From the NCBI GenBank assembly GCA_903834845.1, contig CAILKW010000556.1, positions 1-34,832 on the forward strand: DNA of 34,832 bases, read 5' to 3'. Of the stretch, positions 833 through 19,951 are shown one piece after another; within the stretch, counting starts at the first letter, position 1, and each line of letters begins with the position of its first letter. Made by a program: the position numbers and the translations under genes. The notes beneath the pieces were generated by a model. The model was given only the letters and a program-made list of their open reading frames with translations, was not told the origin of the DNA and searched no databases. Source of the stretch: an uncultured Bacteroidia bacterium. GTDB lineage: Bacteria > Bacteroidota > Bacteroidia > Bacteroidales > Prolixibacteraceae.

Positions 833-2926
833 TTATTGATTCCCTTTTCGAAACCGAACCATGCCACATCCACGCACGAGGGGGACAGTGAGTTCCAACC
901 CGTCGTTTTTGAACCGTGCGGTTAACGGGACAGGTTTTTCAATTCCGGGAAGGATAACCTCACATCTGGCGGTCTTTAGGCCAGGAACGTTACAGACACG
1001 AACGATGGCAGTCCCGGCTTTACCAGCTAAGGTCACCGGCATCACGTAACCATCTGGCACCTCGAACAAATTTACCTTTGCAGAGTCGCTCGCTACGCAG
1101 TGCGGTGTAAGTACCCATTTCTTGCCGCGCATAGCATCCAGGAGTGATCCATAATCAAGAAACATCTTGTCGGCTAGGGGAGAAGGGCGGAGGCAGTGGT
1201 TGTTGTTCGGAAAGGGTGCGGTCGGGAAAACGCCCAGGTAAAGACAGCGTTGAAAATAGGCATCATTGATTTCGCCGTCTCCTGAGGTCCAGATCATCAC
1301 TGGTTTTCGCAGCCCTTGAAGCGCAGAGTAGTTGATATAGCTATCCGAGGCCCATTCCGCGTAGATTCCATCAACTTGTCGGAGCGTTTCAAGGCGAACC
1401 GAGCAATTGTTGGCGAAGATAACCTTGCCTGCCTCGTGCATCAGGGGGCCCAGCTTGCTCATCAAGTCCATCCAAGACATGAACAAGGAACGAGCGGGCC
1501 TACCGTCCACCCAACTGATGCCATCGTCAGCGTTGGTATTGTAGGTGCCGATCCAGTCGTTCCGGTCAATGCCGATACCGTAGGAGTCAGGCAGTTTCTC
1601 GATGTGGCGGCGTGCCTGTTCCAGCAGATGCCGCTGGTAGGCTGGGTCACCGGGATCAACGATCAGCGCGCCGTAGCAGTTCGACCTAAGCGGTTGGTCG
1701 CCCTTCATTATCACGGCTGAGCGGCGGTCGCTCTGAAACAGATAGTCATGCGGGTTTTTCCAAAGATCGTCATCGTTCTTGGCCTGACGTGGAGGTGGCG
1801 GAAACTGCATGTTGCGGCCATATTCGGTGACATTGAAATAGTTCAGGACATAAAAACCATTGGTACGCATCCAACGTCCGTAATCGTTAAGGGTCTGGTA
1901 GCTGGTCCAGCCTGGCTTGCCCGGTGTCCTCTCGTCAGGGGCACGATCCCAGCGGGCCTGCATGTTGGCCATCGGCGGCAGAAACTGTCCCATATAGGGA
2001 AAATCCTCACTGCACTTCCAGTTGATGCGAAACGCCATCTTCCGCAGTTTCTCCACATCGAATTGTTCCTCGCTGCCTGAATAGGCAGCGCACCCGGCCA
2101 TCGTGTCGGCAGCCGGATTTGGCGGATCGAAATACACTGAATATCGCTTGACCATCCAACCAAGTCCTGCCCTGCAATCAGCAGGATGGGCCACCAGATC
2201 CATCGCGAAACTAACTCCGCGGCCTTCTCCAAGACGATATTTTGTTCTGGAGAACGTAATTGCACCCTGTTTAGATACCATTAATTTCAGATCGAGCATC
2301 GTATCTTCCGGCGACTGCACAATAGTAAGTGCCGAGTCAACATCCGGTTCGGCCATGGTTGCAAGCGGAATACAGAACCAAACCGGAGCCTTGCCAAGTA
2401 CCTGACTAAAATGAGTAAACTGATACGACCAACTCCGGTTGGTAAAAGGCCTCCACACCAATGGATCCTGCCAGGTGCCGGTCGTATCGTCGGGATCGCC
2501 CCATGAAGTCCAAAACCGGCTTTCCTCTGTGGCCGGATAATTCAGTTGTGTGGTTATGGCTGTCGTCCATGGCTTGTCGTTGCTGATGATTTGCACTTCC
2601 CAGCGAACGCTGTTACTGGTTGGCGTAAATCGCTCTGTAAGAGATGCCTGATGGCCTTGCACGTCTGTCAACTTTCTGGTGAACGAATATCCACCTCCAT
2701 CCAGTGTTTTCACTACCACCGGGCCTGCTTTATGACAACCGTCGAGCCATGTTTGACCAGTTACCTTCGCCACCGAACAACCTGCAATGAGCCCTTGTTC
2801 ATCGAGCGTCACCGACAAGCCCGGAGACTTCACATAATAGTTAAGAGGCATCTTCGGCTTGGCGATGACGATGAAAGCAGCGGCGAAAAGACAGGTAAGA
2901 GTAACGATGAGGTTCTTCGTGTTCAT
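833..2926 (-). CDS. Secreted TIM-barrel-like protein, IDR-DW family paralog 1 (putative glycoside hydrolase)
   Basis: The start at 2926 places the signal peptide (MNTKNLIVTLTCLFAAAF) at the N-terminus; an upstream ATG at 2971 would add 15 polar residues. The 697-residue protein has a beta-rich N-terminal region (about 25-250), a barrel-like core (about 280-610) and a C-terminal beta domain ending in RGCGM. Core motifs shared with the proteins at 9739-11943 and 17750-19951 are FPYMGQFLPP (about 309-318), NVTEYG (365-370), GIGIDRNDW (450-458), VDGIYAE (518-524) and GKKWVLTPH. By analogy with clan GH-D, D454 in IDR could be a nucleophile and E524 an acid/base; this is inference. I cannot place it in a named GH family. 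It is visibly more GC-rich than both paralogs (a sampled line at 1501-1560 is 55% GC), suggesting separate acquisition. Next to two GH29 fucosidase genes. Confidence 0.8.
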   Translation of the reverse strand: MNTKNLIVTLTCLFAAAFIVIAKPKMPLNYYVKSPGLSVTLDEQGLIAGCSVAKVTGQTWLDGCHKAGPVVVKTLDGGGYSFTRKLTDVQGHQASLTERFTPTSNSVRWEVQIISNDKPWTTAITTQLNYPATEESRFWTSWGDPDDTTGTWQDPLVWRPFTNRSWSYQFTHFSQVLGKAPVWFCIPLATMAEPDVDSALTIVQSPEDTMLDLKLMVSKQGAITFSRTKYRLGEGRGVSFAMDLVAHPADCRAGLGWMVKRYSVYFDPPNPAADTMAGCAAYSGSEEQFDVEKLRKMAFRINWKCSEDFPYMGQFLPPMANMQARWDRAPDERTPGKPGWTSYQTLNDYGRWMRTNGFYVLNYFNVTEYGRNMQFPPPPRQAKNDDDLWKNPHDYLFQSDRRSAVIMKGDQPLRSNCYGALIVDPGDPAYQRHLLEQARRHIEKLPDSYGIGIDRNDWIGTYNTNADDGISWVDGRPARSLFMSWMDLMSKLGPLMHEAGKVIFANNCSVRLETLRQVDGIYAEWASDSYINYSALQGLRKPVMIWTSGDGEINDAYFQRCLYLGVFPTAPFPNNNHCLRPSPLADKMFLDYGSLLDAMRGKKWVLTPHCVASDSAKVNLFEVPDGYVMPVTLAGKAGTAIVRVCNVPGLKTARCEVILPGIEKPVPLTARFKNDGLELTVPLVRGCGMVRFRKGNQ

Positions 2927-3003
2927 TATGTTCAAACTGATATTGACGGGAATTTGCTCATGCTCATTCATATTATTGAATTAGTATATTTCTTTTTTTC
3001 TTT

Positions 3004-4485
3004 TCATTGTTTATTTTTTGTTGTGAATTTAATTGCCCATGCGTGATCACAGGGCGGACTGGAACGAGCGCTGGCAGGGAAAACTATGGTCGTCTGCCCG
3101 TTTTGGGTTTCACCAGCCGACAATTCACCGGCAAATCCAAGCAATGTGATTTTGCAGGCTTTGGCGTTGAGTTCCGCCGGGATCACGAACTTCACCGGCA
3201 TCCCGGCACTGTCGTCCTTTGCAAGTACGATGGCGTACACCGTGCTGTCGCGTTTGACGGTAAAGACGCAGTCGCCTTTCTCATAGGGTACTATGGGACG
3301 TGTGTTGTAAATGGCTTCGCCGTTGATTTTAAGCCAAGCACCCATTTCGTTAAGACGATCAAAGACAATAGGATCAAATACACCATTTCCATCGGGGCCA
3401 ATGCCGATGAGGTAATTGCCGTTGCGTGCAACAATACGGCAAAGGTTGCGGATCAGTGTGCCTGTACTTTTGAATTGGTCGTTCGGCTTGTAGGGCCAAG
3501 CTGTACCCATTGTCATGCAGGTCTCCCAGGGGTAGGGTAAGAAATGGTCGGGGATCTCGCCCTCGGGGGTGATGTAATTCTCGTTCACGCCGCTCACGGT
3601 TCGATCCACTACGATGAGGCCGGGCTGATGTAAGCGTGCCATCGCCACCATACCATTCATGTCGATGTCGTTGTCAGGCGGACGCACCGAACCGCCGTCG
3701 AGCCAGAGGACATCCTGAGGACCGTAGTCGGTCATGAGTTCCCCGATTTGTTTCCAGGTGAACTCTTTGAACTGCTTCCACTGCCCGGGGCGCTCACTCG
3801 GTTTGTAATTGGGACCCTGACCGCTTCCTGGCTGGAGGTCCGGAGTCCAGTAGTTAGGATTGTTCCAATCGGACTTTGAAAAATAGATGCCGGTACTCAT
3901 TCCCTCCTGCCGGAAGGCGTTACTCATTTCCCTGATCACATCTGACTGCTTGTTTGTGTGAAACGGACAACGTATCGAAGTGATCTTGTATTCGGTAGTC
4001 GGCGTGTTCCACAAGCAAAAACCATCGTGGTGCTTCGCCATGGAAAAAACATACTTCACACCAGCTTCCCTGAAAGCGGAGGCCCACTGTCTGGGGTTGA
4101 ACTTTACCGGATTGAAGGTAGTGATCAGGTTCTCATAGGCTTTCACATAAGCGCGATCATCGAGCATATCGTATCCTGGTGGCCGCTTGTTCCAAGGATG
4201 CTCTGTTGTGACCAGGCTCCACGATTCGACGATTCCCCACTGACTATAAGTGCCCCATGTGATAAGCAACCCAAGCTTCCGGTCCTGCCACTCCTGCAAT
4301 TTCTTCAACACCGCAGGGTCTTCCGGTGGTGTCCATTCTTTACTCGCTGTATAAGCTCCGAAGACACCGGTTCCATCTTGTCCCGATGTTGATTGATCAG
4401 GCTTGTTATTTGTTTTGTTTTGATAGCATCCATAAAGGAAGAACCCTAACATTATAAAGATTAAAACTATCTTATTCATAGTCAT
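3004..4485 (-). CDS. GH29 alpha-L-fucosidase, lipoprotein
   Basis: Predicted to remove terminal alpha-L-fucose from glycans outside the cell or in the periplasm. The N-terminus has a hydrophobic stretch ending in a lipobox (LYGC, Cys20), so the enzyme is likely lipid-anchored; the ATG at 4479 (residue 3) is an equally good start. The GH29 catalytic barrel covers about residues 45-385. Family motifs are AKHHDGF (150-156), VLWLDGG with the expected nucleophile Asp263, and PWET at 320-323, the conserved region following the nucleophile. A C-terminal beta domain of about 100 residues follows. Length (493) is normal for a bacterial GH29. The stop is 77 bp upstream of the next gene's start at 2926, and the upstream GH29 gene ends 13 bp before this start, so co-transcription is likely. 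Its GC content is higher than that of the neighbouring fucosidase gene. Confidence 0.93.
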   Translation of the reverse strand: MTMNKIVLIFIMLGFFLYGCYQNKTNNKPDQSTSGQDGTGVFGAYTASKEWTPPEDPAVLKKLQEWQDRKLGLLITWGTYSQWGIVESWSLVTTEHPWNKRPPGYDMLDDRAYVKAYENLITTFNPVKFNPRQWASAFREAGVKYVFSMAKHHDGFCLWNTPTTEYKITSIRCPFHTNKQSDVIREMSNAFRQEGMSTGIYFSKSDWNNPNYWTPDLQPGSGQGPNYKPSERPGQWKQFKEFTWKQIGELMTDYGPQDVLWLDGGSVRPPDNDIDMNGMVAMARLHQPGLIVVDRTVSGVNENYITPEGEIPDHFLPYPWETCMTMGTAWPYKPNDQFKSTGTLIRNLCRIVARNGNYLIGIGPDGNGVFDPIVFDRLNEMGAWLKINGEAIYNTRPIVPYEKGDCVFTVKRDSTVYAIVLAKDDSAGMPVKFVIPAELNAKACKITLLGFAGELSAGETQNGQTTIVFPASARSSPPCDHAWAIKFTTKNKQ

Positions 4486-4498
4486 ATATTTAAATAAT

Positions 4499-5854
4499 TT
4501 AATAACAAGAAAGAGTTCTGATTAGCGGTGTCCCGTCAGATTTCATAACCTGGAGTCTGATTGCCGAGAACATACCATCTTTGATTACCTCAATTCTTTT
4601 GTGACCGATACTGGAACCGTTAGAAATCAACTGCCAGTTACCTTCGGTCATTCCCGAGAGTTTGTATTCCAGAATCCGTTCCCCCTTTGCGATATCTTCC
4701 ATAATGACCACGTATGAAACCAATTTTGGGGATTTAAATTTTACTGTAAATTCATTACCTGAGCCATCCGTTTTTCCCAGCAGATCCGAAAAGTTCTTCC
4801 TGATCAGTTGACCGAAATCTTTTAAACGCTGAACATCTGCATTGGGTACCAATCCCCTGTTATCCACCACAAGCCCCAGCAGCATATTTGTGTTCCTTCC
4901 TACGCTTTTACAATATTTATCCATAAGTTCATTCAGAGGCCGCAACTGGTCATCTTGGTTTTTATGCCAGAACCAGCCGCCCTGAAAAGAAGAGTTTAAA
5001 CGCAGCGGAAAATCTGCCTCCCCTGGGCACCAGAACAAACCTTCGGGATTACCGTTAAGGCCTTTGATTTCAATAACGCCTGATGCTGAAGTTGTTGAAT
5101 CAGCTCTTGACCAGCAGGGATAAGGAGCCACACCTTCTTCATTACCCACCCACCTTATGTTGTTTTCATAACCGTAAGGACCTTGGAAAGCAATGGCTTC
5201 AGTCTGGTATTTTTTCAGCATCCCCAGAAAATCTATTCCGCCTTTTTCCGGTGGCAACACTCCTCCGTCGAACCAAACTTCCATCAAATCACCATATTCG
5301 GACCAAAGCTCAGTCTGCTGAATTTTAACTTTTTCATTGTATTTTTTTTGTTCTTCAGGATCCCCAGAGACAACTTTTCCCGGATTGTCTGCTTTCAGGT
5401 ATCCATTGGCAGTTGTGCTGGCATAAATACCTGGTTTAAGACGGTATTTCTTACATGAAGCAACGAAATCTTTAACAATATCGCCTTGCCCGTTTCTCCA
5501 AGGTGTGTTTTTTACACTGTAAGGATGAGCTTTTGTAGGCCATAAACTAAAACCGCTGCAATGTTTGGCTACGAGTACCGCGTATGTTGCTCCGGCCGCC
5601 TTGGCTGCACTTATCCATTGATCCGTGTCGAGTTCTTTGGGATTAAAAATTGATAAATCGGGATAGTAATTCCAATCCTTCCGGAAATCGTATCCTGGTT
5701 CATAAACAAGGATATCAAAGCATATCAGCACTCCAATTTCCGAATCGGCCCAGTCTAAATGAGCCTTGGTTGGGAGTACCCCCCGGGTGTCCTGTGCCGA
5801 AGCGACAGCTATCAGACCCCAAATCCAAACAAATACATTAATGATTACTCTCAT
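4499..5854 (-). CDS. GH29 alpha-L-fucosidase (subfamily-B-like)
   Basis: Secreted exo-fucosidase. I chose the ATG at 5854 because it puts a clean signal peptide (MRVIINVFVWIWGLIAVASA) first; the ATG at 5884 adds ten residues. The catalytic barrel shows VAKHCSGF (95-102), the counterpart of the usual KHHDGF, and MEVWFDGG with the nucleophile Asp196. CPGEADFPLR contains Glu279, in the position and context (followed by GGWFWH) where GH29-B enzymes carry the acid/base. Those enzymes often prefer alpha-1,3/1,4 fucosyl linkages, so a linkage preference different from its neighbour is inferred. The C-terminal 100 residues form a small beta-sandwich-like domain. Length is 451 residues. It sits 13 bp upstream of the second GH29 gene and is likely in the same operon. 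Confidence 0.92.
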   Translation of the reverse strand: MRVIINVFVWIWGLIAVASAQDTRGVLPTKAHLDWADSEIGVLICFDILVYEPGYDFRKDWNYYPDLSIFNPKELDTDQWISAAKAAGATYAVLVAKHCSGFSLWPTKAHPYSVKNTPWRNGQGDIVKDFVASCKKYRLKPGIYASTTANGYLKADNPGKVVSGDPEEQKKYNEKVKIQQTELWSEYGDLMEVWFDGGVLPPEKGGIDFLGMLKKYQTEAIAFQGPYGYENNIRWVGNEEGVAPYPCWSRADSTTSASGVIEIKGLNGNPEGLFWCPGEADFPLRLNSSFQGGWFWHKNQDDQLRPLNELMDKYCKSVGRNTNMLLGLVVDNRGLVPNADVQRLKDFGQLIRKNFSDLLGKTDGSGNEFTVKFKSPKLVSYVVIMEDIAKGERILEYKLSGMTEGNWQLISNGSSIGHKRIEVIKDGMFSAIRLQVMKSDGTPLIRTLSCY

Positions 5855-5967
5855 TTTAAGCAATTTATAATAAAGATAAGACATGAAATAGTGCTGTAGA
5901 ACATTAACCGGAAGTTTTTCATATTTATCGATGAATAACTGTTTAAAAAAGATTTGCTCCTTACTGG

Positions 5968-7272
5968 TTACTTTGTTTTCAAAAGTTTATTCCCAACAGC
6001 CTTAATCTGTTCAAAGTGGTGAGGCAGAATTTCTCCTTTGGAATCAGTTACGACTTCAAGGCATAATACACCACCATTTGATATGATCTTTTGGGTCTTT
6101 GAAACAAGTGTATCTGTTTCAAACTGTTGTCCGTGGCCACCCCATTTTTCTCCCAGATAAGTAAACAGGAACCATTGTACTCCATCCTTAACCCATCTGC
6201 CTTCGGGTAACTCATCAATAGTCTTTTTTTCTCCGGAACTATAATCACAATAGGGTGTATTTACCTGTATCTTCCCAAACCCATAATTGTAGGTCACTAT
6301 ACTGTTTTTATTCCCTGCTTTGGCAGCAATGGTATGTGTACTTATGTTATGTTTGAGCAACATATCCATTCGTGTACTTCTGATGGCATTCCAAGCATAT
6401 AATCCATCAAACCACCAGCCTTTAACACCATTGCCATATCTCAAACTCCATTCTCTGATCATATCTTCCAGAATAGGCTGATTAAATTGACTTGTCGCTG
6501 AATCTTTACCATTCCCGTAAACATATTTGAATTTCACAGACACAAGTTTGTTTCCTACAGGAGGATTACTCGGCAGGTATAATATCAAAGGAATGTTGTA
6601 CTTTTTCAGCTCCTCCATCAAATCCATGGGCAAATCACGATTTGAGCACAAGTCCCCGGGTTTTATGCCAACGATCCTGTCAAAAGAAGCGTTCGGAGAA
6701 CAGTAATAACCTGAGTTTTGCCCAAGGGTAAACATGACATAACCCGCCCCTGCTTCTTTAGCCTGACGAGCAAATTTATCAACATCAAAGCTGTTTACCG
6801 CATCGTTCCACTCTTTTGAACCTCCGTTAGGGACAATGGCCTCCTTTAAGTAGTGTACCATGATGCCGTAACCGGCATCTTTAAACCAATCAGTGTTGGG
6901 ATTTCCTTTGTATTCAACAGGTTTGGAGGATATAACAGAAACGGCCTTTTTTTTATTCGTACCTTTAATACCATATCTTACTTCACATTTCAGGTATTTA
7001 CCGACATAAGAAGTAAGTAAAACTATCTCTTTTGTGTATATACCATCAAGTATTTCCCATTTTCCCTCCCGTGAAGGGGCCAAATACCAGGAATATTCGA
7101 TAATCTCAGTATCACCCGGAAAATCAGCATGAATACTGACAAGATTTTTGGCAAATAATTCTCCTTCAAAGGATATTTTCATTGCATTGAGCATCTGGCT
7201 GGAGAAGACTGCCACTAAAAAAAGGAAAAGAACATAATAGTTTATCGGTCGTTTGAAGAATGTTGTTTTCAT
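5968..7272 (-). CDS. Divergent GH29-like protein with N-terminal beta domain
   Basis: Secreted protein of 434 residues with a signal peptide (about 1-30). Residues 31-120 look like an immunoglobulin-like beta domain (SWYLAPSREGKWE, then GKYLKCEVRY). The barrel begins near NTDWFKDAGYGIMVHY (126-141), typical of GH29 entry strands, and continues with FDVDKFARQAKEAGAGYVMF. The expected KHHDGF motif is replaced by GQNSGYYCSPN (184-194). GVKGWWFDG (282-290) supplies a candidate nucleophile Asp289. I can see no obvious acid/base. Fucosidase activity is therefore uncertain; altered specificity or a non-catalytic role is possible. The gene lies directly upstream of the two canonical GH29 genes with a gap of about 113 bp. 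Confidence 0.78.
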   Translation of the reverse strand: MKTTFFKRPINYYVLFLFLVAVFSSQMLNAMKISFEGELFAKNLVSIHADFPGDTEIIEYSWYLAPSREGKWEILDGIYTKEIVLLTSYVGKYLKCEVRYGIKGTNKKKAVSVISSKPVEYKGNPNTDWFKDAGYGIMVHYLKEAIVPNGGSKEWNDAVNSFDVDKFARQAKEAGAGYVMFTLGQNSGYYCSPNASFDRIVGIKPGDLCSNRDLPMDLMEELKKYNIPLILYLPSNPPVGNKLVSVKFKYVYGNGKDSATSQFNQPILEDMIREWSLRYGNGVKGWWFDGLYAWNAIRSTRMDMLLKHNISTHTIAAKAGNKNSIVTYNYGFGKIQVNTPYCDYSSGEKKTIDELPEGRWVKDGVQWFLFTYLGEKWGGHGQQFETDTLVSKTQKIISNGGVLCLEVVTDSKGEILPHHFEQIKAVGNKLLKTK

Positions 7273-7307
7273 TTATGAAAGTTTTTTAAGTTGTTTAAAT
7301 ATATTAT

Positions 7308-9728
7308 CTATTTATATTTTACTTCCCAATACGCCTCTTTACTGTCTTTGCGTTCTAATACCACTATTGCAAAATCCTTTCCTGCCGGGTGGGATTCCAT
7401 TCTTACGCTGGCCCCGGACGAAATCACTCTGATATTTTTTCGTCCATTGTTAGCCACAATAATCCGAAACGGTTCACCGCCGATGATTTTTGCAATACCT
7501 GAGAGTTTCTTTCCCACTAAATCCCACTTCACATCAGCCAGTTCAACCCATCCTTGAAGGAGGTGCCGGTTGGTTGACAGAACCTGTGGATTGTTCTCAA
7601 CTTTTCGAACTGAAAGCATAGCAGAATGTAAAGGTTCAAGCTCCCGCGCTACTACATCCTTTCCCGACATTTTTCCAAGATAAGTATCGTTCCAAAAGTC
7701 GTAGATGTAATAAAATACCTTGGGATCGAGTCCGAGTGCTCCTTCCGTCACCCTGTCGCCACAAAGAGCAAAGGATATTTTTGATTTTATTTCTCCGGTA
7801 TTGAAAAAAGCCACCTGATGCCATTCCGGTGTTAATTCCAGATCATAAACCTGAGGGTCCTTTACACCTGTGAATGCATCGATTGGACGTGCAGTAAACG
7901 GTTCCCGGTATGCGGGATAGATTCGTGAGAAGTCATGAACAATATCAAGTGTAAACAGTGAGAATGAGGTTGCCAGGTCGATACGCCCACTTGTTAAAAA
8001 AATCATAGTTAGCATAGATTGCCGGAGTTCTTTTGTGGAGTTGTGCACCGTTTTGGTGTCAGGGAAATAATTGAACACGGTACGGTTCTTATACCATCGG
8101 AGTCCGCCGAGTGTTACCATTGCAGGGACAAAAGTATTGGCATCTGTCCAGTTGCGTTGTGTGTCAACCAGTCCGGCGGTTAAATCCAGACAGGGACGGC
8201 CTGATTCACCCAGGTTACGTTCATCAAGGAATGCCTCTGAGCCCAATCCTTCACGACAAAGCCGGAAAGTTTCACGATAAGCGAATGCTGAGGTGGCATA
8301 GCGGTTTTCAAAACCGCCCTCCGGCCTCCAGCCTGTTTCCGGATAATCAAACTTGATCCCCCTGATGCCCTCACTGCGCAAACGCTTCCACATGGAAAGG
8401 GTGCGTTTCTGAAATTCAGGGTCAGTGTAATCATAAGTGACAAGCGGTTGATGATGATTGTGTTGAACTGCCAGCCTGCTGATATCGTTAAAAAGCATGT
8501 GACCCGGGAATGTCCGCGCATAATCATTCGAGGGCAATCCTACCTGAAAATAGGTGTAAGGAATTCCGTTACGATCGCTGATGGCCTTGCTCCATTTGGC
8601 AAAGGTCTCATACGGAGGAACCAGATGGCCATATTTTTCCCAATGCTCGTCATCCCACCATCCCTGTTCGGTGTTGCCCTGATCTTTATAGCAATAGGTG
8701 TCAGGTTCCAGCCGGATCGCCACTTTTGTGTACTTTGTAAATCCGCATTTATTGGCAGCTTCAAGTTCGTCCACGAGAAGCTTTGAATTATTAATATTAG
8801 GCAACTTGCTCATTGCACCCACAGACCAGCCGCAAAGCACCGGGAAATCATAGACATTGGGACGGGCATTATTTGCAACGCGCATTGCCCGTCCGTATTT
8901 CTCCATTGCTTCAAAAGGATCGGCAGTGATCACATCAAGATAAAAGTTGTCTTCCGACCAGTAAGTCTCTCCGGGATCAATGAGACGGCCAACAGGGTCT
9001 TCAGCGCGAAAGGATACAACAAAATTATCCTTGCTCCCTCTAACCGGGCGTATCACAGACCATTTGCCGAAATCCCTGTATGTAAGTCCACCCCATACCA
9101 TTGTGCAACGGTTGCCATCAACAAGAGCAGTCCACATCAAACTATTCGCTGATTGGTATTCCTGATCAGAAACCGGTATTACATGCTGAGCCTCCGCGCC
9201 TGCGGCACCATTTAAAGTCATGGCTTTTTCTATCCGGCAGCCCATATACAAAACGGCTCCGGATAATGGCTCGGTTTTCATCAATCGCAATGAAATATCG
9301 CGATTGTTTTTCATGCCGAATCCCATAACGATCGCACCGTTATTTTCATAAATTTTGTAACTGTACAGATAAACCGGAATTGCAGGATTGCCGGGGCACT
9401 CCCAATATAACAGTACCCTTATGCCGCTTCCAAAAGAATCAGTTACCTGTTCCCGAGTATGGTTGATTTTCCATTCCTTCATTTGTTGGTTGCGCATCGG
9501 TACCGGAACCCAGCCATTTCCACTCATAAAAGCGTCAGTCAGCACAACTTTTCCGTTGGCAACATCGGAAATACGATAGGTACATTTTCCAAAATCAAAA
9601 CTTATGGCAACCTTGTCATTCGATAAAGATAGTATATCTCCCTGCTCCTCAATTTTTATGTCGGCACGACATGGAAATAAACTAAAGGCCAGTATGCCTA
9701 AAAGTACAATGGTGGATTTTCTTATCAT
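7308..9728 (-). CDS. GH36/melibiase-like alpha-galactosidase-type enzyme
   Basis: Secreted protein of 806 residues with a signal peptide (MIRKSTIVLLGILAFSLF). The N-terminal 290 residues are beta-rich and resemble the supersandwich domain of clan GH-D enzymes. The barrel carries GIRGIKFDYPETGW with candidate nucleophile Asp461. TQRNWTDAN follows, where Arg525 and Asp529 have the R-x-x-x-D spacing seen around the GH27/GH36 acid/base. The C-terminal 110 residues (after HSAMLSVRK) are clearly related to the C-terminus of the protein at 12001-14343, sharing a xSTxRHxxQG-like segment followed by a KW-containing strand. Hydrolysis of alpha-galactosyl or a related alpha-linked sugar is inferred. The family is probably GH36 or an unnamed relative. 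The stop of the upstream gene is 10 bp away, suggesting one operon. Confidence 0.82.
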   Translation of the reverse strand: MIRKSTIVLLGILAFSLFPCRADIKIEEQGDILSLSNDKVAISFDFGKCTYRISDVANGKVVLTDAFMSGNGWVPVPMRNQQMKEWKINHTREQVTDSFGSGIRVLLYWECPGNPAIPVYLYSYKIYENNGAIVMGFGMKNNRDISLRLMKTEPLSGAVLYMGCRIEKAMTLNGAAGAEAQHVIPVSDQEYQSANSLMWTALVDGNRCTMVWGGLTYRDFGKWSVIRPVRGSKDNFVVSFRAEDPVGRLIDPGETYWSEDNFYLDVITADPFEAMEKYGRAMRVANNARPNVYDFPVLCGWSVGAMSKLPNINNSKLLVDELEAANKCGFTKYTKVAIRLEPDTYCYKDQGNTEQGWWDDEHWEKYGHLVPPYETFAKWSKAISDRNGIPYTYFQVGLPSNDYARTFPGHMLFNDISRLAVQHNHHQPLVTYDYTDPEFQKRTLSMWKRLRSEGIRGIKFDYPETGWRPEGGFENRYATSAFAYRETFRLCREGLGSEAFLDERNLGESGRPCLDLTAGLVDTQRNWTDANTFVPAMVTLGGLRWYKNRTVFNYFPDTKTVHNSTKELRQSMLTMIFLTSGRIDLATSFSLFTLDIVHDFSRIYPAYREPFTARPIDAFTGVKDPQVYDLELTPEWHQVAFFNTGEIKSKISFALCGDRVTEGALGLDPKVFYYIYDFWNDTYLGKMSGKDVVARELEPLHSAMLSVRKVENNPQVLSTNRHLLQGWVELADVKWDLVGKKLSGIAKIIGGEPFRIIVANNGRKNIRVISSGASVRMESHPAGKDFAIVVLERKDSKEAYWEVKYK

Positions 9729-9738
9729 AGTATTTTAC

Positions 9739-11943: not shown

Positions 11944-12000
11944 ATAACCTAATATTTTTAATAGAAGTGATCCCTTTTTATTCATGACAAGTGAAAAAAA

Positions 12001-14343
12001 TTACTCCGATTTTCGAAACATAACTGACCAATCAATCATGCAATTGGAAGGTGAAAGGAATACAATGCGCGACAAATTTTGCTCATTATAGACTTTGACT
12101 GTAACGCCTGCTTTTTGGCCGGTCTCACTAACCGTTGCTTCCACCGACTTCCACCCGGATTTCCCTTTGCCTGAATCACCTGTATAAATCCGTAATTCAT
12201 AGGGATCATCTTTAACAACCAGACTGGTACCACTCCAAACCTTATCCGGGACATTCCATTTCAACATTTTGATATCCACAGCTCCCTGCGTTACATGCCT
12301 CGATGTGCCCAACAACAAAGGGCGATTTCCAGTCTTTTGAAGCGAGATGATTTCAGAGTGACGTCCAAGTAAAGTCCGAGAGATTTTATTCACAAACAGC
12401 CCAACCATCTTATTTTCCCAAAATTCAAATCCGGCGTAGTTGGCCTTTGGATCAAGGCCAAGGCTTTTCAAAGTCACGTCAAGTGTGACCTCCTTATCCT
12501 CCCAGTTAAATAATCCAATAACTGTAAAGGGTTCTCCGTCTATTACATAGTCTAATTTCCATATCCGTGCAGGATCGTTCTCCAAAAAGTCAATCGGGCG
12601 CACACTGGTCAATTGATGATTGGGCATTGTCCGGCGTAGGAGTTCTATTCGCTCGTCGGAATAATCCGGAGACCAGTCTGTTTGATTGTTCAACATACCA
12701 GTAAGTGCCACCCATCCGGCATAGCAACGGACTTCATTCAGAGGCCACGAATTTCTTGCATATATGGCATCCGGGTCGTTCCACCACACGCGGCCGTTCA
12801 AAAAATAGAGAACCGCACTGCTTCGCAAAGCACCGACCAAGCTTGTCCTTTGTGAAGCATTGCCCCAACGCACCACATTGTCAGGCCCAACGCGCATTGC
12901 ATCTGCCAGCCCCAGGGTCATTGCCAGTGAACGCTCGTTCTGGGGAACAGCGCATCCAAGGATAAAGGTTTTCTCTCCTGCCGCTTCACGGACGGCTTTC
13001 AGCCCAGCGCGGCCTGCCTGCATATTTGACTGGTTCTTATCCATAAACACAACGTCCCCGTAATTATCCTCCACATATTCATGATGGGTATAGGTTTGGT
13101 CAGAGGCCATACCTATGTGAAGACCATCGAGTTTGAGGTAAGAATAACCCCATTCTTTGACCGCCAACCCGATTATTTTCCTGACATACTCGAGTGCGTC
13201 TGGCCTAGTAAGGTCAAGAGCTGTTCCTGACCATTTTACTTCATAAGGCGTACCGTCAGGTTTCAAGGCAACCAGTTGCTTACGGTCAGACAAAATCTTA
13301 TCGTTGTGATTGATGGCAAAAGGCAGTATCCACAATCCCGGCATCAGTCCGATCTCTGAAATCCGGTCTGCAACAGGTTTCATTCCCCCCGGATAAGGTC
13401 CGATGGGATTGACCTTGGTGAAATCCTTTGCGGGGCCATTTGATTTAGACCCATTTTGCCAGAGATCATCAATCTGTACAAAGCCATAGCCATAATTGCC
13501 AAACTTTTCTTTCGAGAACTTAGCCAGTTCAATTACCGCCTTTTCATTCAGCGCACCACCGTATTTCTCGGCATACCAGGACATGAAACCTGTTGGGCAG
13601 GGTTTAAGCCGGACTTCCTGAAGGCGGGCGATCTCACTACCGTAGGCCTCCAGTCCCTCACGTATATCGCCGGCGTAGCCCACGACCCACCAGTCACCAC
13701 CGAAAGGTTCCAGCCCGGGCGGTACAACGGTGCCGTATTCGTTGATCAGGGTCATCACCATCCGGCCTTTGTCAAGGTGGGTACGCACCACAGGACTGGA
13801 TGACTCAATCCTGGCCAGTCCGGCAATGACTCCGGCATTTGTCACCGGATCTGCAACTGCCGTAAAAAGATGCTGCCCGGGATTATTGACAGGATCGAAC
13901 AACCCTGCCGGGCTCAATCCTTTTAAACTGGTATGCGCGAAACTCTCCGTCAGTTTGATTTCAAGTGCCACAACCCTCCGGTAAGGAGGAACAGTTTCTC
14001 TTAGCCGTGGGTCGCGTCTTACGAACACGAAAGGAGATCCTTCGCGGACAAATATTCTGTTTTCCCCAGGACCGATCTTTAGCATCTGCCCTGGGCCAAA
14101 GGACGATTTCACATGTTCCACCTCACAAGTTGCAGCTCCGGGCTCTGAAAACTTCCCTGTGGCAAACACGCGTCCGGCGCACATAAAACTCAACTCACCG
14201 CTGTCAGTATAGAAACGCGCTGAGATAACACCTGCTGAGATGGTGACCGTGCCCTTTTTTCTGAAGGTTCCGCACGTCACCAGAACCAATGATGCCAGCA
14301 ACACGGCTGTCAATACAACTACAAATACCCTGATTCTTACCAT
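12001..14343 (-). CDS. GH36-type alpha-galactosidase, probable lipoprotein
   Basis: Predicted to cleave terminal alpha-D-galactose from an oligosaccharide. The ATG at 14343 gives a hydrophobic leader ending LVLVTC (Cys24), a lipobox-like sequence suggesting lipid anchoring. After a beta-rich N-terminal domain (about 30-245) the barrel shows the clan GH-D landmarks: GFVQIDDLWQ (about 288-296), ALDLTRPDALEYV, and YSYLKLDGL with nucleophile Asp406. ADAMRVGPDN follows, where Arg484 and Asp488 fit the R-x-x-x-D acid/base motif. A C-terminal beta domain ending the barrel is followed by a module of about 100 residues starting SRHVTQGAVDIK that is shared with the protein at 7308-9728. Total length is 780 residues, longer than compact GH27 enzymes because of that module. 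The gene is richer in GC than the adjacent gene at 14415-16580. Confidence 0.88.
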   Translation of the reverse strand: MVRIRVFVVVLTAVLLASLVLVTCGTFRKKGTVTISAGVISARFYTDSGELSFMCAGRVFATGKFSEPGAATCEVEHVKSSFGPGQMLKIGPGENRIFVREGSPFVFVRRDPRLRETVPPYRRVVALEIKLTESFAHTSLKGLSPAGLFDPVNNPGQHLFTAVADPVTNAGVIAGLARIESSSPVVRTHLDKGRMVMTLINEYGTVVPPGLEPFGGDWWVVGYAGDIREGLEAYGSEIARLQEVRLKPCPTGFMSWYAEKYGGALNEKAVIELAKFSKEKFGNYGYGFVQIDDLWQNGSKSNGPAKDFTKVNPIGPYPGGMKPVADRISEIGLMPGLWILPFAINHNDKILSDRKQLVALKPDGTPYEVKWSGTALDLTRPDALEYVRKIIGLAVKEWGYSYLKLDGLHIGMASDQTYTHHEYVEDNYGDVVFMDKNQSNMQAGRAGLKAVREAAGEKTFILGCAVPQNERSLAMTLGLADAMRVGPDNVVRWGNASQRTSLVGALRSSAVLYFLNGRVWWNDPDAIYARNSWPLNEVRCYAGWVALTGMLNNQTDWSPDYSDERIELLRRTMPNHQLTSVRPIDFLENDPARIWKLDYVIDGEPFTVIGLFNWEDKEVTLDVTLKSLGLDPKANYAGFEFWENKMVGLFVNKISRTLLGRHSEIISLQKTGNRPLLLGTSRHVTQGAVDIKMLKWNVPDKVWSGTSLVVKDDPYELRIYTGDSGKGKSGWKSVEATVSETGQKAGVTVKVYNEQNLSRIVFLSPSNCMIDWSVMFRKSE

Positions 14344-14414
14344 GCGAATTTTTATTAGTTAAACAGCTACTCTTTATCTATTTATCTTGTTACGTAAAGA
14401 TCTTATTTGATATC

Positions 14415-16580
14415 TTATTCTATAACAAACCAGGAATAAGACTCCGCCGGAATTGTCACAGGTACCTCAATTTCATATTTTCTGCTGAGCTCATATTCCT
14501 TTGATTGTCCTTCTTTTTCACGAACCCGGGCTGATTTGGTCAAACCTGTATAATACAATGGAATACTGATATTTCTTGAAATATCTTCCTTTAGAGGATT
14601 AAATACCATTATAATTCCTTTGTTTTTGAGTTTATGATTTACCATCATCCAGCCATCCCAATCTCTTCCGTAGGGACGACGAAGGTGTATCAGATCTCCA
14701 TTGAGCAGGTCACGGTATTTCTTGTACCAGGCAATTGTATTCACTACCAGTTCTTTTGTTTCCGGGGTATCATACAAACGGAACCCCCGGTAACAAGCCT
14801 GTACACCGGAACCGTAATGCTGGATCATAAAGTGCTCATAATCATTTAAATGTTTGGAAAGCGGCTCAATTGTAGCATCTTCGCGACCTCCGGAATAAGT
14901 GGTCAGCGGAACAAAACCCCAGTTCATAGAGGGAGTTTTTTCCCAGAGTGCATCAAAAATATTTTGCCGGTTAAGAATTTTTTGTTGCTCTCTTGACAAC
15001 CTGTAATTACCTTCGCTGTAACCGATGCATATCTTATTGGTGCCATCGGCAAGGTACCAATCCGGAGCATTTACATAAACACCATGTTCACTGCACCAAT
15101 GATACAGGTCTTTTTGCATTTCCAATTGTTTCCATTGACTGTCATCCAGATCATTATGCCCTGGATGGGTTTTGGAAGCACAAATGTCTCCGGCATAGGG
15201 ACCATCATGTTCAAAAATATCAAAGCCGGTGGCTTCCATAAAATGTTCCAATTTCTTTTTATATTCAATACCCCATTTACTTCCAAAGCAGGGGGCATTA
15301 CCATAAAGTGCCCCTCCCGGTTTCCCGGAAACGGGATCTATAACATCTGTTTGGTCATCAATCCTCCTGGAACTGAACAATGAATAACCACCGATCCCGA
15401 TATTTTTTGAATGGGCATAATCAGCCAACTCTTTCCATTTTTTTATATTTCCCTCGCTGTCATCTTCCATTCGGAGATGGCTGCCAAAGCTCACGATCAC
15501 AGCTTCATATCCGGTTTCAAAACATTGGTCAATCGCAGTCCTGACCTGCTCATCATTTCTGCTAACCAAGTGCATGAAAACCGGGTTTTCGTTGGTCCAT
15601 GGCATCAATGTTTTATACATCCTCCGTATCATTAAACCTCTTCTTTCCCGATCGTAACTATCTGTAAGTAACTCGTATGTATGTAAGGATGTGAATTTTT
15701 CGTTTATTTTAAGAATTACACCCGGTCCAACCTTAGGAAATATTTCGAGCTTATTGGGATAATTGCTGCTTTGCGATTTATACTCCTTATCAAAGGACCA
15801 GTGTGTTGAGAAATCACTGAATTCAAATGTCATAGAGTTATTATAGGCATAGTTTGTCTCACAATATATTCCGTGATATGGCTTATATTTAGATGGATCA
15901 CCCACTCTGGTCAGCTGTTCTTCAGGTACTGAAAGGATTTCATGCACAACCTGGCTAATTTTAACATTTTGTTCTCTCTCAGAAGTAATAGTCAGCCATT
16001 TCCTGATTGCGGGGATACCATCATATATTTCATAATTAACCTGAACCTCAATGCCTTCAATTTTTTTATTGATTCCTTTATAATGAAAAGTAATCCCTTT
16101 ACCTATTGGCATTTGATTATTGGAAGACCAAAAATGTGGTTTATACTTAAAAAAATGTTGTACCGAATTTATTTCATAAGATTGAAAGGCAAAGTCTTGA
16201 TTGGTGTTCTTCAAAGAATCAATCCATTCCTGTTTCAGATAAGCCCTTTCTTTCTGACCACTTAATCCGCCAATTTTATATTTTTGGTCATCAATGGTAA
16301 TTTCGGCTTCGGGCTCAACAGCCCTGATCAATTGTTCACCAGTGGCAAGATTGCAATAATCGATGCAGGCAACATTAGGTATTATCCTGAAAGCCCGCCT
16401 GACAAGACCATTCTCAAGAACAATATTCTTATTATCGGGGGATTCCGATATTTTTGAGATAAAACCTTTTGATTGAATTAGCCAATCAGAAATTGAAGTT
16501 TCTTTCAATCTATTTTCATACATATTGGAACATAACAAGACCAATATTCCGCAAAAAATAAAAACTATATTTTTTTTCAT
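14415..16580 (-). CDS. Clan GH-D-like putative alpha-glycosidase (complete copy)
   Basis: The ATG at 16580 gives 721 residues beginning MKKNIVFIFCGILVLLCSN, a signal peptide or lipoprotein leader; the frame is open to a TTG at 16610 that I reject. Residues 40-300 are beta-rich, including the LENGLVRRAFRIIPN and PEAEITIDDQKYKIGGL motifs shared with the truncated gene at 1-474. The barrel includes GYEAVIVSFGSHLRMED, GIGGYSLFSSRR and GFDIFEHDGPYAGD, in which Asp459 is the candidate nucleophile. YRLSREQ (about 526-532) may hold the acid/base as R-x-x-x-E. Fold-level resemblance to GH36/GH27 is inferred; no exact family is claimed. The AT-rich base composition contrasts with the upstream gene's neighbours at 12001-14343. 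A short gap of 37 bp separates it from the propeller enzyme gene upstream. Confidence 0.75.
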   Translation of the reverse strand: MKKNIVFIFCGILVLLCSNMYENRLKETSISDWLIQSKGFISKISESPDNKNIVLENGLVRRAFRIIPNVACIDYCNLATGEQLIRAVEPEAEITIDDQKYKIGGLSGQKERAYLKQEWIDSLKNTNQDFAFQSYEINSVQHFFKYKPHFWSSNNQMPIGKGITFHYKGINKKIEGIEVQVNYEIYDGIPAIRKWLTITSEREQNVKISQVVHEILSVPEEQLTRVGDPSKYKPYHGIYCETNYAYNNSMTFEFSDFSTHWSFDKEYKSQSSNYPNKLEIFPKVGPGVILKINEKFTSLHTYELLTDSYDRERRGLMIRRMYKTLMPWTNENPVFMHLVSRNDEQVRTAIDQCFETGYEAVIVSFGSHLRMEDDSEGNIKKWKELADYAHSKNIGIGGYSLFSSRRIDDQTDVIDPVSGKPGGALYGNAPCFGSKWGIEYKKKLEHFMEATGFDIFEHDGPYAGDICASKTHPGHNDLDDSQWKQLEMQKDLYHWCSEHGVYVNAPDWYLADGTNKICIGYSEGNYRLSREQQKILNRQNIFDALWEKTPSMNWGFVPLTTYSGGREDATIEPLSKHLNDYEHFMIQHYGSGVQACYRGFRLYDTPETKELVVNTIAWYKKYRDLLNGDLIHLRRPYGRDWDGWMMVNHKLKNKGIIMVFNPLKEDISRNISIPLYYTGLTKSARVREKEGQSKEYELSRKYEIEVPVTIPAESYSWFVIE

Positions 16581-16617
16581 CGTTAAAAATTTTAAATCGT
16601 TATCTTCCAACAGCAGA

Positions 16618-17631
16618 TCATTTGGCTAACCGGAAAGAGTCGGCAGTCCACTCTATAGGTGTAAATTTAAGCTTAGTATGCCCATCAAGTCCAGTAACAC
16701 CGGTCATATACCACTGACCCTTAAATTCTATAATCTCATGCGCAAAACCGGTGCCATCATCTTCGGCATAATAAAATGTTCCCTTTCCTTCATCATGAGG
16801 TTTCGGAAACGTATAAATACCAGACTTAAACGGGTATGTTATAATTGGCGGAAAATTTAACGGATCATCAGATACAGAATAACCTCCGTTCATGAATATG
16901 ATCCATTTTCCTGATAACGGATGTCTCATAACGAACGGACTCTCTCCGGGATTCATGCCGGTTTTGCCAACTTTGAGATCTGATTCATCAAGTGCCATTC
17001 CGGCTTCTGACCAGTGAAAAAGATCTTTGCCTTCATACACAGCAACAGCATTAGATCTAGCAGTAAACAACAACCACCGGTCATGATCCTCATCTTTTAC
17101 TACACACGGATCAGAACCTTTAGGAGTCAGACCGTCTTTTGCAAACGCTTCAGGTTTCTCCCAGGTTACGAGATCCCTGCTCACAGCCAACCCAATTCCC
17201 TGACGGAAGCCCTCAAAATTGCGCGGATTTTTGCTTTTAAAGTCCCACCCCGAATAGTACATATAATATTTGTCATTGTATTGTACCATACATGGTGCAA
17301 GACCGCTCATTATCCTGTCAAAATAACCTTCGTGTTTGCCCGATGGCACCGCTGTACCAATATGTTTCCAATGCATAAGATCTTTACTTACCATGTACTC
17401 GGCACTTTCTTCTGAGCCTTCGTAATGCCACATGGTGCCAACCGATCCGAGAGGTGCAAAAAGATGCCACTTCCCCTTTTTAAAAATCAAGCAATGGTCT
17501 TTCATGTACATTCCCGGGGGGGCATACAGACCTCCGCCAATGTCTTTTTTCCAATCATTAGTCTGACTAAAACAGCTTAAAAGGATACCAAAAAATATTT
17601 GAAAAAAAAGGGAAAATTTAACTGCTTTCAT
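16618..17631 (-). CDS. GH32/GH43-like five-bladed beta-propeller glycosidase
   Basis: Secreted protein of 337 residues. I chose the ATG at 17631 because the signal peptide MKAVKFSLFFQIFFGILL then starts the protein; the ATG at 17679 would add 16 residues. Three acidic landmarks occur in the order and spacing of clan GH-F/GH-J propellers: MKDHCLIFKKGKWHLF with Asp45, GSDPCVVKDEDHDRWLLF with Asp174, and GESPFVM with Glu230. Repeated blade-like strands (SKDLMHWKHIG, SRDLVTWEKPE, GKDLFHWSEAG) support the propeller fold. Activity on arabinose, xylose, fructose or galactose residues cannot be separated from sequence alone. It lies within the hydrolase run, 37 bp upstream of the clan-D-like gene and about 118 bp downstream of the IDR-DW paralog 3. 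Confidence 0.82.
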   Translation of the reverse strand: MKAVKFSLFFQIFFGILLSCFSQTNDWKKDIGGGLYAPPGMYMKDHCLIFKKGKWHLFAPLGSVGTMWHYEGSEESAEYMVSKDLMHWKHIGTAVPSGKHEGYFDRIMSGLAPCMVQYNDKYYMYYSGWDFKSKNPRNFEGFRQGIGLAVSRDLVTWEKPEAFAKDGLTPKGSDPCVVKDEDHDRWLLFTARSNAVAVYEGKDLFHWSEAGMALDESDLKVGKTGMNPGESPFVMRHPLSGKWIIFMNGGYSVSDDPLNFPPIITYPFKSGIYTFPKPHDEGKGTFYYAEDDGTGFAHEIIEFKGQWYMTGVTGLDGHTKLKFTPIEWTADSFRLAK

Positions 17632-17749
17632 AATGTTGATTTTTAAAATTTCAATTAATAAAGCCATACAAGTGTTCATTTATTGAAAAACATATTTTCA
17701 AATAATTCTATTTAAGATAAGCTATTCCACAAATTTTTTTCAACCATTT

Positions 17750-19951
17750 CTATTCTTCTCTTAAAACAATCATTGAGCATCCTCTTTTAACAGGTGAATC
17801 AATTATTAACTTATCACTTTCAATCCAATTTTTAACTTTAATTTCATTCTCATTGCCAGGTAAAATTGCAGTTATATTGAATGATTTTTTTCCTAACACT
17901 GATTTTTTAACCCCTATCTGAACATTTTTGTCATCCTCTGCGAAAACTACCGGGATCGCATATCCCTCAAATGTTTTAAATATATTGGCTTTAGCAGTTG
18001 CACTAATTGCTTCTATTGCATGAGGCTCAAGAACCCATTTCTTTCCTTTCAATTGCTTTAATAAAGGACCATAATCCAAATAGAGCTGATCAATCCATTC
18101 ACTTGGCCGCAGTGAATGGTCATTGGCAGGAAATGGTGCCATTGGAAATACTCCCATATACAAATATTTTTGCATTGCTTTGTCGGGATTTGGTTTAAAC
18201 TGATTTTCATCGCCAATCCAACCAAGCACCGGTTTTTTAATCCCCAGTAATCCAACAGTATTTAAGGGACTGCCGGAATAGGTAAATTCGTCAAAAATCC
18301 CATCAACAAGTTTTAACTGTTCAAGCCGTTTGACATGATTGTTAACAAAAATAACTTTGTTCTGATTATGAAAAACCGGTCCAAGCTTTTCCATCAAATC
18401 CATCCATGAAACATATAATGACCGGACCGCCTGGTTTCCCAGCCAACTAACTCCATCATCCCTGCGATGATTATACATGCGTAGCCAATCCATTCGGTCA
18501 ATACAAATTCCTGAAGCATCAGGAATCAGTTCATTATGTCTTTTAGCCTGGTTTAATAAGAATTGCTGATAAACGGGTTCCCCCGGATCCAGAACAATAC
18601 CATTACCCCAAGTCCAGAAAGGTTTGTCAGGTTCTGTCTGACCATAGTGAACGCTCTTAAATCCTTTTTGTGCCGTAGGTGTAAATAAAATTGCTTCAGA
18701 CAAATTAGTAAACAGAAAACCATTGGCATCTTTCCATAATTCTGAAGGATCCTCCGACTTTAGAGGAGGTGCCGGATATTTTATATCTGCACCAAATTCG
18801 GTAACATTAAAATAGCTCAACACATAAAAACCTTTTTTTTTCATTTGTCCCGCGTATTCCTGGAACCTGGGCAATGAAATCTCACTATCAGCCTTATTCC
18901 TTATGTAGCCCCTCCACTTAACAGAATCTGCAACAGGAGGCAGGAACATACCCATATATGGGAAATCGTGACTTGCTTTCCAGTTAACGGCAAATGCCAT
19001 TTTCGAGAGTTTTTCAGTACTAAAATCCATCCAGTTTCTTGAATACGCCCCGGTTCCTGCAATAGAATCGGCAATGGCTACATTTGGCTCAAAATACTGA
19101 GGGTAATTATTATATATTGCCCCTAAGGAAGCACGCCAATCTGCTTCATGAACAACGATATCCATATTAAAACGAATACTACGCCCACCTCCAAACCGAT
19201 GATTCAGATGTGTCAGCTTTACAATTCCAGTTTTTGTTGTTCCAAGATACATATCTAACAATAAATCTTCCGGAGACTGTATTAAGCTAATTCCTAAATC
19301 ATTCTTTGGTTCCATAATGGAAATCATCGGGATACAAAACAAGTCGCCCTGAAAAGGGCAAAATGCAGTTATAGGATTATCGTAGGTGTAATAAGGAGCA
19401 CCATAATAATAGATGTCATCACGAAATGGTATGCTTAATAAGGGATCCAACCAATTACTTCGATCTCCAGAATCACTTTTGACCATTGCATTCGCAATCT
19501 CTTTCTCATTAATTTTTTTATTAGTTGTATTACCATTTGGGCTTCCCCAGGCCGTCCAAAACCGGGTGTCACGATCAGCAGGATAATCTAAAATAATATT
19601 AATCGGTGTACTCCAAAAGGCTCCATTGTCAATAATTTCAACTTCCCATTTGATTCCCCCCGGCGTAGTATAAAATCTTTCAATTAAAGTCAATTGAGTA
19701 TCCCCTTTTAACAGTTGCTTTCTGAATTCAAGACCACCTTTCCTGATTTTTTCAGATTCTACTTTTATAACCTTAAATCCTTCTAAATCTACAAAACTGG
19801 AAACTTTTCGTTCAATTTTCCCAATCTTTAATTTCTCAATATTACCGCTGTCTGAAAATGAAGCATTAAGCTTTGATGATCTTACTGTATTGCCTACACA
19901 TGAAATAAACATGGCTGCAATCAACAACATAAATACAACTTTTCGTTTCAT
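17750..19951 (-). CDS. TIM-barrel-like lipoprotein, IDR-DW family paralog 3 (putative glycoside hydrolase)
   Basis: The ATG at 19951 starts a leader ending MFISC, so Cys18 is a lipobox cysteine and this copy is probably surface or outer-membrane anchored, unlike the other two copies. The 733-residue protein keeps all family landmarks: a beta-rich N-terminal region with FWTAWGSPNG, SPEDLLLDMYL, then FPYMGMFLPP (330-339), NVTEFG (382-387), GICIDRMDWLRMYN with Asp485, VDGIFDE with Glu555, DYGPLLKQLKGKKWVLEPH and a terminal RGCSMIVL. Aspartate of IDR and the glutamate after VDG are invariant in the three copies and are the best catalytic candidates. No named family can be given. The gene is distinctly AT-rich (a sampled line at 18661-18720 is about 32% GC), unlike paralog 1. 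It follows the GH36 gene by a 176-bp gap. Confidence 0.8.
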   Translation of the reverse strand: MKRKVVFMLLIAAMFISCVGNTVRSSKLNASFSDSGNIEKLKIGKIERKVSSFVDLEGFKVIKVESEKIRKGGLEFRKQLLKGDTQLTLIERFYTTPGGIKWEVEIIDNGAFWSTPINIILDYPADRDTRFWTAWGSPNGNTTNKKINEKEIANAMVKSDSGDRSNWLDPLLSIPFRDDIYYYGAPYYTYDNPITAFCPFQGDLFCIPMISIMEPKNDLGISLIQSPEDLLLDMYLGTTKTGIVKLTHLNHRFGGGRSIRFNMDIVVHEADWRASLGAIYNNYPQYFEPNVAIADSIAGTGAYSRNWMDFSTEKLSKMAFAVNWKASHDFPYMGMFLPPVADSVKWRGYIRNKADSEISLPRFQEYAGQMKKKGFYVLSYFNVTEFGADIKYPAPPLKSEDPSELWKDANGFLFTNLSEAILFTPTAQKGFKSVHYGQTEPDKPFWTWGNGIVLDPGEPVYQQFLLNQAKRHNELIPDASGICIDRMDWLRMYNHRRDDGVSWLGNQAVRSLYVSWMDLMEKLGPVFHNQNKVIFVNNHVKRLEQLKLVDGIFDEFTYSGSPLNTVGLLGIKKPVLGWIGDENQFKPNPDKAMQKYLYMGVFPMAPFPANDHSLRPSEWIDQLYLDYGPLLKQLKGKKWVLEPHAIEAISATAKANIFKTFEGYAIPVVFAEDDKNVQIGVKKSVLGKKSFNITAILPGNENEIKVKNWIESDKLIIDSPVKRGCSMIVLREE

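Follow-up and report, generated by a model that had tools for sequence, protein, structure and literature searches.

A family of putative exported alpha-glycosidases absent from Pfam and NCBIfam, with three diverged copies in one Bacteroidota PUL

Results

Gene content of the locus

The window, by which we mean the whole 34,832-nucleotide stretch of DNA analysed here (contig C556), is a PUL that contains an ECF sigma factor, FecR, SusC, SusD, three GH29, one GH95, one GH43/GH32N-like and three GH36-like genes together with three copies of the protein family described below (P0001, P0002 and P0003). Its features are listed here by coordinates and strand.

1..474 (-): N-terminal portion of another X14415-type gene, truncated at the contig end
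833..2971 (-): family copy 1, P0001, 712 aa; start possibly at 2926; candidate nucleophile D469, candidate acid/base E539
3004..4485 (-): GH29 alpha-L-fucosidase (Pfam PF01120, 289 bits)
4499..5884 (-): GH29 alpha-L-fucosidase-like protein (Pfam PF01120, 116 bits)
5968..7272 (-): divergent GH29-like protein (Pfam PF01120, 60 bits)
7308..9728 (-): GH36-like protein without a Pfam match, linked to GH36 via its similarity to 12001..14343
9739..11985 (-): family copy 2, P0002, 748 aa; start possibly at 11943; candidate residues D501 and E571
12001..14343 (-): GH36-like protein; Melibiase just below the Pfam cut-off
14415..16610 (-): X14415, without a convincing family model; weak Pfam matches
16618..17679 (-): GH43/GH32N-type protein (Pfam PF04616, 57 bits)
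17750..19951 (-): family copy 3, P0003, 733 aa; putative lipoprotein; candidate residues D485 and E555
20128..22230 (-): GH36-like protein; Melibiase below the Pfam cut-off
22346..24094 (-): SusD
24119..27535 (-): SusC-type TonB-dependent receptor
27680..28861 (-): FecR anti-sigma factor
29146..29715 (-): ECF sigma factor
29817..32117 (-): GH95 (Pfam PF22124, 182 bits)

The first-pass annotation had placed the three copies among GH29, GH36 and GH43-like genes and Pfam agrees, with three GH29 matches that exceed the cut-off, one GH43/GH32N-like match and two Melibiase matches below the cut-off. The GH36-like protein at 7308..9728 resembles that at 12001..14343 (BLASTP E 7.8e-17), and its GIKFD sequence is compatible with a K-x-D motif. 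GH95 is a family of alpha-L-fucosidases. A search of a plasmid collection gave no match.

X14415 (731 aa) is a candidate for a second unnamed family. Its best Pfam match is weak (E 0.016), profile comparison with GH36 gave 0.25–0.7%, which does not identify it as GH36, and homologs occur in 12 of 296 genomes of the phylum and 17 of 41 relatives. The product of 1..474 shares 43% identity with it over 120 aa. Another contig of the source genome, C671 (L170), opens at positions 1–555 (+) with the C-terminal portion of a gene of this type; further along it carries genes for a sugar permease of the MFS type, a GH29 paralog and a further X14415 homolog, as well as a fourth copy of the family (C671:12837-15089). 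The two contigs may be neighbours, which would place four copies in one locus. We considered X14415 as a general partner of the family and rejected this, as it adjoins the family only in the source genome; in congeners that have both, the genes are on different contigs or 40 kb apart. The source genome assembly comprises 8.2 Mb in 851 contigs with a contamination estimate of 6.09%.

Three diverged copies with an ordered set of motifs

The three proteins had been described as diverged paralogs with an ordered motif set, and we identified all seven motifs in the same order in all three ORFs. In P0001, P0002 and P0003, respectively, FPYxGxFLPP reads FPYMGQFLPP, FPYPGMFLPP and FPYMGMFLPP; NxTE(Y/F)G reads NVTEYG, NTTEFG and NVTEFG; GIxIDRxDW reads GIGIDRNDW, GICIDRMDW and GICIDRMDW; DD-x-x-SW reads DDGISW, DDRASW and DDGVSW; and VDG-x-x-x-E reads VDGIYAE, VDGFLCE and VDGIFDE. 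The last two motifs are GKKWVL(T/E)PH and RGC(G/A/S)M in all three. Pairwise BLASTP E-values among the copies are 4.9e-166, 5.6e-142 and 1.5e-125 and therefore reflect homology rather than chance, and the two other copies show 36 and 41% identity to P0001 in a MAFFT alignment. The boundaries given earlier stand for 17750..19951; the other two ORFs (833-2971 and 9739-11985) run slightly longer, to 2971 and 11985, and the previously annotated starts (2926 and 11943) correspond to Met codons located further downstream in the same frame. The N terminus of P0001 is signal-peptide-like. P0003 carries a lipobox-like FISC at Cys18, recognised by eye rather than by SignalP, in line with the suggestion that one copy is a lipoprotein, which we regard as putative.

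The family in sequence libraries

Searches with P0001–P0003 gave no Pfam match up to E 10 and, in NCBIfam, one match at noise level (E 0.25). Sequence searches of the PDB with P0001 and with a three-row profile returned noise, and no PDB chain matched a 73-row family profile at E<=10. When 56 of the 73 rows were compared with Pfam, five families were matched, by one member each and all weakly (E<=0.1), the best being GHL15, a hypothetical glycosyl hydrolase model (E 0.0018). The GH101 (PF12905) and GH129 (PF11308) models did not match the window copies at E<=10, nor are they among the five families listed for the 56 members at E<=0.1. PF11308 gave zero matches in 99 genomes and controls, hence no GH129 profile was available for comparison. 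The family is not named in the titles and abstract openings found in the literature. The statement that no named GH family carries this signature thus holds for Pfam, NCBIfam and PDB sequences, libraries that exclude dbCAN and CAZy. Our best reading is an unclassified family in the GH36/GH31/GH101 superfamily, its novelty resting on Pfam, NCBIfam and the PDB and a CAZy check pending.

Distribution and conservation

Related stretches of DNA were retrieved with two short peptides, and the best 80 of 93 were analysed. By record title, a few of which read only “bacterium”, these 80 loci span about ten phyla: Verrucomicrobia, Planctomycetes, Armatimonadetes, Bacteroidetes, Acidobacteria, Hydrogenedentes, Sumerlaeota, Aerophobetes, Bacillota (Paenibacillus) and Chloroflexota (Anaerolineae). 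In a sample of the phylum the family was present in 4 of 296 genomes, the source genome included, with up to three candidates scored per genome; among close relatives it was present in 8 of 41, namely the source genome and 7 of the 17 other genomes of its genus. Three copies within 19 kb are therefore unusual.

The 73-row alignment combines the three window copies with 70 of the 80 loci. Those left out are near-duplicates as judged from the listing (L022, L033, L048 and L077), truncated (L025, L062, L063 and L071) or split in two frames (L079 and L082). Invariant residues (P0001 numbering throughout) include Asp439, Asp469, Asp482, Glu539, Arg526, Asn478, Asn547, Asn590 and His592, among others. 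Both D469 and E539 are kept in 73 of 73 rows; the two retrieval peptides inflate their own conservation, and the Asp and Glu sites are not among them. Later additions were the ten dropped loci, eleven congener and phylum loci, a second L019 copy and the first L015 domain; of the eleven, L100, L106 and L107 appear to duplicate the records of L052, L049 and L048. Wherever an added copy extends over the site, it has Asp469 and Glu539, the Glu of L063 being read by eye. IDN replaces IDR in three rows of the alignment and in two added rows, so Arg470 is not strictly invariant. The residues N317, W318, N380, N478, R526, W561, N590 and H592, which lie in or after barrel strands, are conserved in 71–73 of 73 rows. 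The position two residues before Asp469 is occupied by Cys (67 rows), Ala (5) or Gly (1) and never by Lys.

Predicted fold and catalytic positions

AlphaFold models of P0001 (minus 37 aa; pLDDT 93.7, pTM 0.93) and P0002 (minus 41 aa; pLDDT 90.0, pTM 0.92) both show a (beta/alpha)8 barrel flanked by beta-rich domains at the N and C termini, consistent with the TIM-barrel-like family named in the first-pass annotation. The barrel strands of P0001, as read, span residues 294–298, 314–319, 374–380 and 465–469 (strands 1–4) and 517–520, 535–538, 558–560 and 582–584 (strands 5–8). DSSP assigns D469 of P0001 and D501 of P0002 as the last residue of strand 4, and E539 and E571 as the first residue after strand 6. 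The Asp of IDR had been placed where clan GH-D enzymes carry the nucleophile and the Glu of VDG-x-x-x-E near strand 6; in both models carboxylates stand at these two strand ends. Based on the strand positions, we infer that D469 and E539 face one pocket. The most likely activity is that of a retaining alpha-glycosidase in which Asp469 serves as nucleophile and Glu539 as acid/base.

The Foldseek search against the PDB identified the GH36-type alpha-galactosaminidase FpGalNase of Flavonifractor plautii (PDB 8x1b, 9ayu, 9awt) as the top match for both models (P0001, E 3.6e-21, TM 0.62; P0002, E 1.4e-17, TM 0.58). The best 50 of 1067 matches for P0001 and the best 50 of 905 for P0002, which we assign from titles and presumed family membership, are GH36, GH31, GH101, GH129 or GH66 enzymes; the title of one entry, 8a1a, does not name its scaffold. 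This comparison of two copies points to the fold of the GH36/GH31/GH101 superfamily.

Comparison with GH36, GH31 and GH101 enzymes

The shared fold is accompanied by little similarity at the profile level. With hhalign, the 73-row profile reached 3.8% against GH36 (E 0.011) and 0.2% against GH31, neither significant, and single family copies reached 0.15–0.4% against GH36, whereas GH36 against GH31 gave 88.7%. Two of the GH36-like window proteins served as positive controls as single sequences against the six-row GH36 set (12001–14343, 97.3%; 20128–22230, 96.1%), whereas 7308–9728 gave only 0.4% in that test; with cleaned five-row sets, all three reached 98.4–99.0%. A weak, non-significant profile alignment places GIxID469 on GIKFD of 7308–9728, in agreement with the strand position. 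The N-terminal beta domain, barrel and C-terminal beta domain follow the GH36/clan GH-D layout, but sequence and profile similarity is not significant, the K-x-D motif is represented by its Asp in 73 of 73 rows and by its Lys in none, and the carboxylate after strand 6 is Glu in 73 of 73 rows where GH36 enzymes have Asp. Membership of GH36 by sequence was therefore rejected, on the missing Lys and the hhalign value of 3.8%.

FpGalNase has the same domain layout as the family, with 9–11% identity in the Foldseek alignment. Its D463 and D532, which we read as nucleophile and acid/base, are 69 residues apart, compared with 70 for D469 and E539. Its K461-x-D463 has no counterpart in the family, which has C/A/G-x-D469; its D346-D347 contrasts with N317-W318 (71 and 73 of 73 rows) on strand 2, a placement that follows strand order; and its D532 contrasts with Glu539. 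The FpGalNase variants D463A, C513A and D532A are nearly inactive according to the excerpted text of PMC11762096, which gives K461, D346, D347 and D463 as conserved with GH36 and lists D532 as not conserved with the GH36 alpha-galactosidase compared. Because of this last entry in the same excerpts (PMC11762096), the equivalence of the two acid/base positions is uncertain.

The GH36 alpha-galactosidases AgaA (4fnu) and SpAga (6phw) share the fold and the Asp at the end of strand 4 with the family but differ in their pocket motifs and, as noted, in profile. The GH31 enzyme YihQ (5oht, 5aee) shares the fold (TM 0.50–0.53), and GH101 and GH129 enzymes (5a55; NagBb, 5wzn; ZgGH129, 8rzk) share the barrel (TM 0.38–0.52) without a Pfam match. 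We take D764 of SpGH101 to be its nucleophile and E796 its acid/base, so a Glu acid/base has precedent. PDB titles for SpGH101 name D764N and E796Q variants, and no direct statement on GH101 catalytic residues was found in the excerpts of PMC8106489. The family probably works like a GH36/GH101-type enzyme.

Gene neighbourhoods and domain fusions in relatives

When single window proteins were used as phmmer queries, 14 of the 80 loci had a GH29 gene close to the family gene; a profile partly built from its own hits raised this to 15, the additional locus being L044 (49.9 bits). In L030, a single ORF of 1342 residues (5487–9512, +) joins a family domain with GH29 and includes a DUF4440-like tail. 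Proteins of five loci (L008, L015, L017, L034 and L055) end in NPCBM with chitobiase-C/Fn3-associated domains. The 1833-residue ORF of L015 (7454–12952, +) has two complete tandem family domains, together with a chitobiase-C-like linker and an NPCBM domain at its C terminus. In congeners, a GH29 gene lies directly downstream of the family gene in 4 of 7 loci, which is probably one inherited arrangement. The congener locus L103, which has a family copy, encodes a FucP-type fucose permease; two genes from this permease, one ORF (3094–6213, -) combines GH29 and GH95 domains. In another locus, L102, a DUF4838 protein (11118–13328, +) adjoins the family gene and is divergently transcribed, and L104 and L105 have an ORF of the same size (738 codons) at the position matching the DUF4838 gene.

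The association with GH29 is partly inherited synteny: four congeners share an arrangement, and L013, L022 and L028 are related. GH29 is also abundant, with 17–36 hits per genome in 8 of 8 genomes, and its link to the family is therefore only suggestive. Of the 271 nearest neighbour ORFs, 251 were scanned with Pfam in sets of 86, 90 and 75, the remainder being 12 ORFs longer than 1200 aa and 8 short ORFs of 2–224 aa; the scanned ORFs include spurious ones from high-GC contigs, and the tallies cover the best 25 of 109–117 families. Alpha_L_fucos is the commonest family listed in the first set (5 of 86); in the second (2 of 90) it ties with GH92 and GH2 behind beta-helix (5) and sulfatase (4) families; in the third, alpha/beta hydrolases and AraC regulators lead and Alpha_L_fucos is not among the 25 families listed. 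Some copies adjoin non-glycan genes, such as the carboxyltransferase next to the family gene in L100.

Relationships among the copies

A quick maximum-likelihood tree of 84 rows (83 different; SH-aLRT support only, arbitrary root) placed P0001 in a 12-row clade (support 99) of Verrucomicrobiota, Acidobacteriota, Planctomycetota and Armatimonadota with one Bacteroidota row and one row of an unnamed phylum. P0003 falls in a four-row clade (98) with Zobellia and Agaribacillus, and the C671 copy in a four-row clade (100) with Rikenellaceae. P0002 is the most divergent copy, with an end branch of 2.46 and an unsure placement. The copies sit apart in the family tree and are therefore old branches brought together; recent tandem duplication, which we considered, is not supported by these separate clades. 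P0002 departs from nine near-invariant positions (e.g., D323N, N521S and P596W) and keeps all candidate catalytic residues. Different specificities among the copies are plausible, and stepwise attack on related linkages, as proposed in the first-pass annotation, can be hypothesised.

Discussion

We propose, at a probability of about 0.8, that P0001, P0002 and P0003 are exported alpha-glycosidases with a retaining mechanism, from a family undescribed in Pfam, NCBIfam and the PDB and structurally part of the GH36/GH31/GH101 superfamily (“GH-D-like”). The proposal draws on homology, conservation, fold, strand positions and gene context. In the predicted mechanism, attack of Asp469, at the end of strand 4, on the anomeric carbon would yield a glycosyl-enzyme intermediate; Glu539, which directly follows strand 6, would serve first as acid and then as base, with retention of configuration as the expected outcome. 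N317, W318, N380, N478, R526, W561, N590 and H592 would line the -1 subsite. Acting in exo mode alongside the three GH29 enzymes, the GH95 enzyme and the three GH36-like proteins of this PUL, the copies would probably cleave different alpha-linked caps or branches off a glycan that contains L-fucose. The nature of this glycan is much the weaker part of the proposal, and we assign it to fucose-containing glycans tentatively, at somewhat under even odds.

An established CAZy family that Pfam and NCBIfam lack, either a divergent GH36 subgroup or a recent GH number, would account for the match of fold and catalytic positions to GH36-type enzymes, and the GH36-like protein 7308–9728 shows that such a protein can likewise fail both Pfam and the single-sequence comparison (0.4%). 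We nevertheless consider this explanation unlikely, as the 73-row profile matches no PDB chain at E<=10 and stays at 3.8% with GH36, compared with 97% and 96% for 12001–14343 and 20128–22230 alone, and the residue at -2 to the Asp is never Lys. Non-hydrolytic use of the fold, as a transglycosylase, in a lyase-type reaction or as a carbohydrate-binding scaffold, appears distinctly improbable: the Asp/Glu pair is invariant at both catalytic positions across about ten phyla, and a scaffold needs neither residue. It would nonetheless be compatible with the many invariant residues besides this pair and with the transglucosylase and the cycloalternan-forming and -degrading enzymes of the superfamily that Foldseek also lists. 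GH31 itself includes lyases.

A substrate without L-fucose, e.g., an alpha-galactoside, alpha-GalNAc or a glucuronide, comes just short of an even chance. The GH29 link would then reflect general GH29 enrichment, as the counts in all eight genomes allow, and the nearest fold is that of a galactosaminidase. NPCBM (CBM51) domains bind galactose and blood-group A/B structures. The absence of Alpha_L_fucos from the 25 families listed for the third neighbour set also agrees with such a substrate, whereas its lead in the first set, its tie with GH92 and GH2 in the second and the single family–GH29 fusion ORF argue for fucose. Taken at its fullest, the alpha-glycosidase reading describes an unclassified GH family that occurs in about ten phyla and combines an Asp/Glu pair in a GH36-type barrel with a new -1 subsite (neither K-x-D nor DD) and an uncharacterised specificity, and of which at least three and perhaps four diverged versions would serve in this PUL to strip different caps from a fucose-rich glycan; we hold this fuller description to be evenly poised.

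Given the candidate catalytic pair, two point mutations in each enzyme would put the proposal to a direct test, and the three diverged copies in one PUL form a natural comparison of specificity. If the proposal is correct, a conserved family in Verrucomicrobia, Planctomycetes, Armatimonadetes, Acidobacteria, Bacteroidetes and others would be invisible to Pfam and NCBIfam annotation, and its substrate could account for part of the breakdown of fucose-rich glycans from algae, plants or microbes.
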